NCBI RefSeq assembly: GCF_000829695.1
Contig: NZ_BBNN01000017.1
Span: forward strand, 186,001-250,000
Source of the DNA: Streptomyces sp. NBRC 110035
Lineage (GTDB): Bacteria; Actinomycetota; Actinomycetes; Streptomycetales; Streptomycetaceae
Direction: 5' to 3'
Length of the DNA: 64,000 bases
Shown: in pieces, positions 33,475-34,144 of the stretch
Layout of the letters: every line of letters starts with the position of its first letter
How positions within the stretch are numbered: position 1 is the stretch's first letter
Notes under the pieces: model-generated
What the model saw: only the letters and a program-made list of their open reading frames with translations
Database searches by the model: none
Told to the model about the DNA's origin: nothing
Made by a program: the position numbers and the translations under genes

Positions 33475-33804
33475 TCAGATCCTGCCGCGGCACAGCTCCA
33501 GCAGGGTCATCGCGAGCGTGGTGCCGGGCTTGCCCAGGGCATCCCTGTAGTGGCCGAGGACCTCCATCTCCCGGGAGAGGTTCACCCGCCGGCCGCCGGA
33601 GGTGATCCGTTCCTGCTGGATGACGACCGACACGGCCATCCGCTCCTGGACCAGGCCGATGATCCGATCGTCGAGCGCGTCGATCCGCTCGCGCGCGCCG
33701 GTGATCACACCGGCGGCCTCGGCGGTGCGGGCGCCGGTCTTCTCGGTGCTCGCGGCTTCGGTGGTGACCGTGGTCGCCGTGGTGGCTGTGGTGGTTGTCG
33801 TCAT
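33475..33804 (-). CDS. chorismate mutase, AroQ type
   Basis: This 109-residue protein starts at ATG 33804 with GAGGAG 8 nt upstream. A Thr/Ala-rich N-terminus of about 35 residues precedes the helical AroQ core: RERIDALDDRIIGLVQERMAVSVVIQQERITSGG and the final MTLLELCRGRI helix. AroQ dimers convert chorismate to prephenate, the first step to Phe and Tyr. The conserved Arg and Lys/Gln positions of the family are visible in part. The gene stands alone, antisense to guaA, and its leader contains a Phe/Tyr-rich peptide and a hairpin, suggesting attenuation control. Confidence 0.9.
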   Translation of the reverse strand: MTTTTTATTATTVTTEAASTEKTGARTAEAAGVITGARERIDALDDRIIGLVQERMAVSVVIQQERITSGGRRVNLSREMEVLGHYRDALGKPGTTLAMTLLELCRGRI

Positions 33805-33860
33805 GTCGGGGCTCCTCGTCGGACGGTGCGGAGTGCCCGGGTACATGGTCCGAAAACGTC

Positions 33861-33893
33861 AGGCGCCCCGGACCTTGTCGGCCCGGGGCGCCT
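33861..33893 (-). terminator. attenuator hairpin in chorismate mutase leader
   Basis: On the minus strand AGGCGCCCCGG (33893-33883) pairs perfectly with CCGGGGCGCCT (33871-33861), and the transcript then reads GACGTTTTCGG. It begins 21 nt after the leader-peptide stop and ends 56 nt before the chorismate mutase ATG, the layout of a transcription attenuator. Confidence 0.75.
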
Positions 33894-33914
33894 GGGAAGG
33901 TGCTCGTCAGTGAC

Positions 33915-33986
33915 TCAAGCAGCACGACCATGGCAGCCGGTGGGCCGGTTGCCATAGGTAAAGAGGAAGGTCGGGTGCGTGAGCAT
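33915..33986 (-). CDS. Phe/Tyr-rich leader peptide of chorismate mutase
   Basis: A 23-codon frame from ATG 33986 to TGA 33915 encodes a peptide with the core HPTFLFTYG (residues 4-12): two Phe and one Tyr among five residues. It precedes the attenuator hairpin. Ribosome stalling at these codons when Phe/Tyr-tRNA is scarce would favour read-through into chorismate mutase, as in pheA leaders of other bacteria. The start codon coincides with the predicted transcription start, so the leader is probably leaderless. Confidence 0.65.
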
Positions 33987-33992
33987 GGGCCC

Positions 33993-34021
33993 AGTATGCC
34001 GCGCGGTCCCCGGCCGGCCAA
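33993..34021 (-). promoter_or_regulatory. promoter of the chorismate mutase leader
   Basis: On the minus strand TTGGCC (34021-34016), a 17-nt spacer and CATACT (33998-33993) form a vegetative-type promoter. The leader ATG begins 7 nt after the -10 hexamer. Confidence 0.6.
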
Positions 34022-34144
34022 CACGGGTCGCATGCTGAGACGGGCTCCACCGCGCGGGCACCGGGAGTGAGGGAGAGGGCGGGCACGCGCCTCCCGGTAG
34101 AATCGGAAGGCACCAGATCCCGCCCCACCGCCGGAAGGCACCTC

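Follow-up and report, generated by a model that had tools for sequence, protein, structure and literature searches.

A putative leader-peptide attenuator reading phenylalanine and tyrosine supply upstream of the chorismate mutase gene aroQ in Streptomyces

We found that aroQ, the chorismate mutase gene in a 64,000-nt stretch of Streptomyces sp. NBRC 110035 (contig NZ_BBNN01000017.1, positions 186,001 to 250,000; hereafter the window), is very probably governed by a ribosome-mediated transcription attenuator of the pheA/trp type that reads the charging of Phe-tRNA and presumably of Tyr-tRNA. Comparison among related genomes supports its predicted parts, namely the open reading frame, the geometry of the start, the control codons, the terminator, and the antiterminator; from these we infer translation of the leader, stalling upon it, termination in vivo, and a response to amino acids. 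The gene is probably switched on only when Phe and Tyr run short, and the switch, as judged from sequence, is common to many related bacteria. The features that deserve attention are the breadth of its conservation, its predicted leaderless start, and its rare control codons. Chorismate mutase sets the split between Phe/Tyr and Trp, and chorismate-derived aromatic compounds feed secondary metabolism in Streptomyces.

The leader locus and its predicted start

The gene (33475..33804, minus strand, as are all features given below) encodes a protein of 109 aa from ATG 33804, behind a GAGGAG Shine-Dalgarno sequence at 33817-33812. We take the enzyme to be of the AroQ-delta type. The identification of the gene after the leader as an AroQ chorismate mutase is upheld by a score of 120.6 bits against NCBIfam NF005894 (cut-off 73), while Pfam CM_2 gave 26.8 bits, just below its cut-off of 27; both scores were taken on a 123-aa reading from ATG 33846. 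Second, more diverged chorismate mutases, which carry no leader, were seen in the same genome (L023, contig C61) and in genome G001 (L022); the former shares 42% identity over 71 residues with the AroQ of the window and, by eye, sits downstream of a gene end resembling a transposase.

A putative promoter, TTGGCC-17 nt-CATACT (33993..34021), was recognized from its sequence, with the -35 hexamer at 34021-34016 and the -10 hexamer at 33998-33993, the hexamers and spacing being those of the preliminary description. The leader ORF (33915..33986) begins at ATG 33986, is predicted to be leaderless, and comprises 23 codons with an in-frame F-x-Y-G core, TFLFTY forming codons 6-11; the peptide had been described in these terms, but with a gap of 7 nt after the promoter, where the sequence gives 6 nt between CATACT and the ATG. 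Codon conservation marks F7 (TTC), F9 (TTT), and Y11 (TAT) as putative control codons (33954..33968). Downstream, three helices are predicted: helix 1:2, CTATGGCA-CCGG / CCGG-TGCCATGG (33928..33957), whose 5' side begins at the Tyr codon; an antiterminator, helix 2:3 (33883..33940), formed by the 5' arm of the terminator with the 3' arm of helix 1:2 and the stop-codon region; and the terminator itself, helix 3:4 (33860..33894), a hairpin of 15 bp including one G-U with a 5-nt loop, followed by ACGTTTTC. The preliminary description was thus right in placing a hairpin between leader and aroQ, but not in its dimensions, having given an 11-bp perfect stem. The GTGCT/AGCAC pairing that it noted by the stop codon is present and sits within the antiterminator predicted for the window sequence.

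A start at the 5' end of the transcript is suggested by the promoter geometry in relatives. Among 168 distinct leaders, an xAxxxT hexamer lies 4-9 nt before the start in every one (168/168, against 445/3360 random positions), and a -10-like hexamer lies 6-7 nt ahead of the start in 166, counts to be read with the fact that the choice of start leaned on the hexamer where more than one start was possible; only one of the 168 has a Shine-Dalgarno-like stretch. As far as sequence can tell, the -10 spacing is that which a leaderless mRNA requires, an indirect test of one of the two grounds for rejection named in the preliminary description, a transcription start downstream of 33915. About 21% of S. 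coelicolor mRNAs are leaderless according to the available part of a transcription-start study (PMC4895711).

Immediately upstream of the -35 hexamer lies a conserved element, GTCTCA(S)(S)AT(S)CG (34025..34041), which is found in 101 of 146 Streptomyces-type leaders, with one copy elsewhere in the same regions, and which starts 55-92 nt upstream of the leader start (55-59 nt in 90 cases). The 17-nt pattern has one exact copy in the genome and six one-mismatch copies, as compared to three for a reversed control. It is possible that the element is an operator or an upstream promoter element. On the plus strand, the divergent neighbouring gene is, by the look of its sequence, presumably the GMP synthase gene (guaA).

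Conservation of the leader within the order and beyond

By protein search, aroQ is present in 144 of the 147 genomes in an order-level sample and in all 21 near relatives, and upstream sequence was obtained for 142 of the 144. The preliminary description had named lack of frame conservation in relatives as grounds for rejecting an attenuator; we found the in-frame F-x-Y-G in 141 of these 142 upstream regions, the single miss (L133) being a contig end. In the remaining two order genomes (G096 and G144), in which aroQ is diverged, an RNA model of the leader, R1, found the variant leaders ...FRFWFTFG... and ...FWFGHG.... Counting duplicates, the leader is present in 172 of 186 loci; it was missed at three contig ends (L002, L016, and L133), at the second chorismate mutases L022 and L023, and at nine class-level loci, where inspection by eye revealed some variant leaders. 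The 14 named loci are all Streptomyces. Two same-genus loci, L264 and L265, have a diverged aroQ with an insert in mid-protein and a leader whose conserved Tyr has given way to another residue (FTFG; FWFGHG), perhaps a shift to sensing Phe alone.

The leader occurs far above chance: 174 of the 183 upstream regions carry a Phe-(x)-Tyr-Gly mini-ORF on the aroQ strand, compared with 1/183 on the opposite strand and 4/915 shuffles. It also keeps company with aroQ. R1 gave a full-length match (78-175 bits) in 12 of the 13 same-genus genomes searched, our own included, and 11 of these matches adjoin aroQ; the match in G002 lies on a different contig, the aroQ of that genome being at a contig end, and in the thirteenth genome (G008) aroQ is cut by a contig end. 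No full R1 leader match was found in either same-genus genome that lacks an aroQ match (G077, and G053, which has a 30-nt partial match). A third genome without an aroQ match, G039, yielded only terminator-like fragments with R1, a result that says little because R1 is weak in its family. Among the R1 matches listed, those not at aroQ were partial or at most 36 bits, and no mini-ORF rich in Phe or Tyr was found in the 600 nt before either of the two DAHP synthase genes or the prephenate dehydratase gene of the same genome.

The codons themselves are distinctive. Of 168 leaders, 166 encode the conserved Phe by TTT and 165 the conserved Tyr by TAT, whereas in 32 mechanically chosen ORFs of the window TTT accounts for 8 of 331 Phe codons and TAT for 17 of 321 Tyr codons. 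Because TAT lies inside helix 1:2, its conservation may be structural; TTT lies outside that helix. The core is FTYG in 146 leaders, FFYG in 12, FSYG in 6, FYYG in 2, and FGYG and FIYG in one each, with FTFG and FWFGHG in two diverged genomes, and 78 of 85 distinct N-termini have F or Y at codon 7. The leaders have 4 to 11 codons ahead of the Phe and retain an in-frame start. Past Tyr-Gly the frame is not conserved: among leaders of the 8-codon class, ten show shifted C-termini, with the hairpin bases unchanged. Taken together, the free C-terminal frame and the retained hairpin suggest selection on an in-frame start and on Phe/Tyr codons, and thereafter on the RNA.

Outside the order, the enzyme profile A2 matched 79 of 246 class-level genomes, 57 of them extra-order. 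We searched upstream of all 57 with a script, two of the regions (L221 and L263) being short contig ends, and inspected 23 by eye. Of the 57, 33 contain a Phe-(x)-Tyr-Gly ORF: 12 of 19 in family f6 (RRFFYGYR(S/P)AVPVV type), 15 of 19 in family f20 (FYG(D/G)RARSP type), 6 of 10 in a further set, and none of the remaining 9. Reading by eye added variant leaders with FYQG (L231 and L240), FYG missed by the script (L239 and L247), FFYA (L084, L086, and L087), YFAG (L088), RFYP (L256), and YFVF or AFVF (L258 and L260). An aromatic leader was not seen by eye at L229, L233, L236, L241, L253, or L254, or by script at L255. Two of these, L233 and L236 (family f6, genus g35), have by eye a different short ORF before aroQ (MVRAPARHLYRM... 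and MVCPFVKQPLRL...) without an aromatic core, and their aroQ is perhaps under another control. In the other families, the sequence is largely different, yet the ORF and a following hairpin are kept in many.

Competing helices and the simulated ribosome

A terminator hairpin is predicted in 165 of 168 distinct leaders, with a stem of 13-16 bp in 149 of them, and distinct leaders average 4.25 T per 14 nt after the hairpin, as compared to 1.98 in controls; the T-tract of the window, ACGTTTTC, is weak. In an alignment of 137 leaders, mostly close relatives (A3), helices 1:2 and 3:4 together have 95.3% of cells paired, compared with 31.8-44.2% when the partners are slid. Helix 3:4 contributes 96.7% of cells paired and seven pairs with double changes; helix 1:2 has 93.5% of cells paired and no pair changed on both sides in the 137 leaders, and it also forms in the computed folds. 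The rival helix 2:3 is paired in 95.6% of cells (30.8-48.7% when slid) and has five double-changed pairs. No shuffle of 500 reached its observed covariation score or its number of double-change cells, while 2/500 reached the number of double-changed pairs and 37/500 the number of pair types; when slid by +1, the helix likewise gave five double-changed pairs, in 17 cells as against 13 unslid.

Antiterminator and terminator would be mutually exclusive, in that the partner columns of helix 2:3 (89-102) overlap those of the terminator 5' arm (90-105). In L126 and L136, segments 2, 3, and 4 change jointly, columns 31, 94, and 124 passing from C-G-C to U-A-U, as expected if segment 3 has two partners; these two leaders look related, and the joint change may be a single event. 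On this comparative evidence, both terminator and antiterminator appear to be kept with compensatory changes. Folding energy was considered as further evidence for the antiterminator and set aside: the mean z-score was -0.7 over 162 leaders and about 0 for the window, and control stretches gave +0.15.

We then placed a simulated ribosome on each codon, removing RNA upstream of and under it (14 nt from the A-site codon) and cutting the transcript before arm 4. In the window, predicted capture of the terminator 5' arm was highest at F7 (0.82), L8 (0.84), F9 (0.84), T10 (0.77), and Y11 (0.63); it was 0.18-0.26 over codons 1-6 and 0.51 at G12, fell to 0.12, showed a second rise at H19-R21 (0.46-0.49), and stood at 0.18 at the stop codon and 0.49 without a ribosome. 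In this model the window sequence has its stalling window on the Phe/Tyr codons and not at the stop codon. Averaged over 54 leaders, capture was 0.79-0.86 with the A-site codon at -4 to -1 from Tyr, 0.67 at Tyr, and 0.13-0.27 from three codons past Tyr, and it was already 0.62-0.69 at -10 to -5; without a ribosome it was 0.38. The mean profile thus distinguishes stalled from completed translation well but is poor at telling early codons from aromatic ones, while the window sequence separates both. Capture was higher at aromatic than at other codons in all 162 leaders, of which only 95 beat 90% of circular shifts.

Among divergent leaders, L013, L036, L079, L080, L083, L085, L181, and L217 peak on the aromatic codons, and L078 does so with a second rise; capture is high from the first codons in L010, L011, L021, L082, and L175. 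The stalling window is flat in L178 and weak in L219, L232, and L225, and the scan found none in L223, L242, L248, L218, L256, or L258, where the choice of terminator is also uncertain. In four of these (L223, L242, L218, and L248, from family f20 with the FYG(D/G)RARSP type of leader), a downstream segment looks by eye like segment 1 and several competing hairpins are possible, and the simple stall model does not fit them. When full-length RNA was folded at equilibrium with a ribosome placed at Tyr, the terminator formed in all 12 examples inspected, so that the antiterminator could act only kinetically, by forming first.

Proposed mechanism, alternatives, and relation to known systems

The layout had been likened to classical pheA-type attenuation, a reading that is supported by frame conservation, compensatory helices, and the stalling window predicted in silico. 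Under such a mechanism, RNA polymerase would take the A of the leader ATG as the first nucleotide of the transcript, onto whose leaderless 5' end a ribosome would load directly. With ample Phe and Tyr, it would pass F7, F9, and Y11 to the stop codon and cover segment 2, leaving segments 3 and 4 to form the terminator, and aroQ would not be transcribed. Were Phe-tRNA or Tyr-tRNA short, it would stall on F7-Y11 and cover segment 1; segment 2, now free, would pair with segment 3 (the terminator 5' arm) before arm 4 is made, and transcription would proceed into aroQ. The choice would be a kinetic one. If the leader were not translated, helix 1:2 should favour termination, a point on which the model is indecisive.

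Alternatively, one could envision arrest by the nascent peptide, as with TnaC, in which the F-T-Y-G peptide itself stalls the ribosome and senses free Phe, Tyr, or another metabolite. The near-invariance of F-x-Y-G in the genus, at both the amino-acid and the nucleotide level, and the small number of control codons (only two to three per leader) would fit this. However, the residues vary as Phe/Tyr codons rather than as one peptide (FFYG, FYYG, FSYG, FGYG, FTFG, and FWFGHG), with FFYA, YFAG, and FYQG in other families; the nascent chain at the stall point would be only about 7-11 residues long; and the stall window predicted from the RNA spans about five codons rather than one site, so we regard arrest as improbable. 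A role in translation, with the leader and its hairpins governing how accessible the aroQ ribosome binding site is, or acting by coupling, and the hairpin not terminating, is distinctly improbable as well, even though the T-tract is weak and S. coelicolor ilvB and leuA leader mutants, in the part of that report available, did not fit classical attenuation (PMC1262725): the hairpin ends 42 nt before GAGGAG and is followed by a T-enriched stretch, and segment 2 has the 5' arm of that same hairpin as its partner.

We give still less credence to a ligand-binding riboswitch or a protein-binding RNA element with an incidental ORF. The near-invariance of TTTACCTATGGC across 137 leaders could be taken for such an element, but the aromatic codons are kept, as is an in-frame start 4 to 11 codons upstream of the Phe, and the ORF and hairpin persist in many families despite the largely different sequence. 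Moreover, Rfam gave no match at gathering score anywhere in the window, and its only three matches to the leader at E up to 5 were all far under their gathering scores. Least credible of all is an ordinary stable hairpin beside a chance ORF, without regulatory function; high-GC DNA is indeed rich in stable hairpins and the energy z-scores are unremarkable, but the strand and shuffle controls described above, together with the absence of the leader where aroQ is absent in the genus (2/2), speak strongly against it.

Ribosome-mediated attenuation of aroQ, the reading we prefer, resembles several known systems. The closest is aroR-aroF of Corynebacterium glutamicum, which shares with it an actinobacterial aromatic leader peptide, a gene of the aromatic pathway, and ribosome-mediated attenuation. 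There, according to the parts of the reports available, a Phe-Tyr-Phe leader precedes the DAHP synthase gene aroF and answers to Phe limitation and not to Tyr (PMC11802643), and the attenuator is credited to Neshat et al. 2014 (via PMC11802643 and PMC7356990). The present leader differs in preceding a chorismate mutase gene and in having an F-x-Y-G core that is conserved across an order and also occurs in several other families. With the Streptomyces attenuators of the trpE/leuA type it shares a leaderless leader, here a predicted one, before an amino-acid gene. Leaderless leader peptides, several with a hairpin terminator, have been described for trpE, trpS, leuS, leuA, ilvB, thrS, and metN; in the portion of the same source available, the S. 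lividans TK24 reannotation has eight leader peptides, none of them Phe/Tyr or before a chorismate mutase (PMC8079986). Seliverstov et al. 2005, as far as the accessible text goes, reported Actinobacteria phenylalanine/tyrosine operons without conserved upstream RNA structures (PMC1262725). The main-text passages available on Streptomyces and actinobacterial attenuation yielded no earlier report of this aroQ leader.

The leaders of E. coli pheA and pheST begin translation from a Shine-Dalgarno sequence and contain a run of Phe codons. The aroQ leader resembles those of E. coli pheA (pheL) and pheST in its Phe control codons and its competing antiterminator and terminator, and pheA also has a chorismate mutase downstream; it differs from both in its predicted leaderless start, in having two to three control codons that include Tyr, and in serving a stand-alone AroQ-delta. 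A broader proposal is, on balance, doubtful: that this is an ancient OR gate spanning the class Actinomycetes, with a single codon for each of Phe and Tyr at the base of the first stem, the rare TTT and TAT kept by selection, and ribosomes loading without a Shine-Dalgarno sequence, such that shortage of either amino acid would open aroQ. A conserved Phe/Tyr attenuator before aroQ would offer a testable control point and a handle for the engineering of aromatic flux, and its many homologs would form a natural set of leaders in which to study attenuation on leaderless mRNA.
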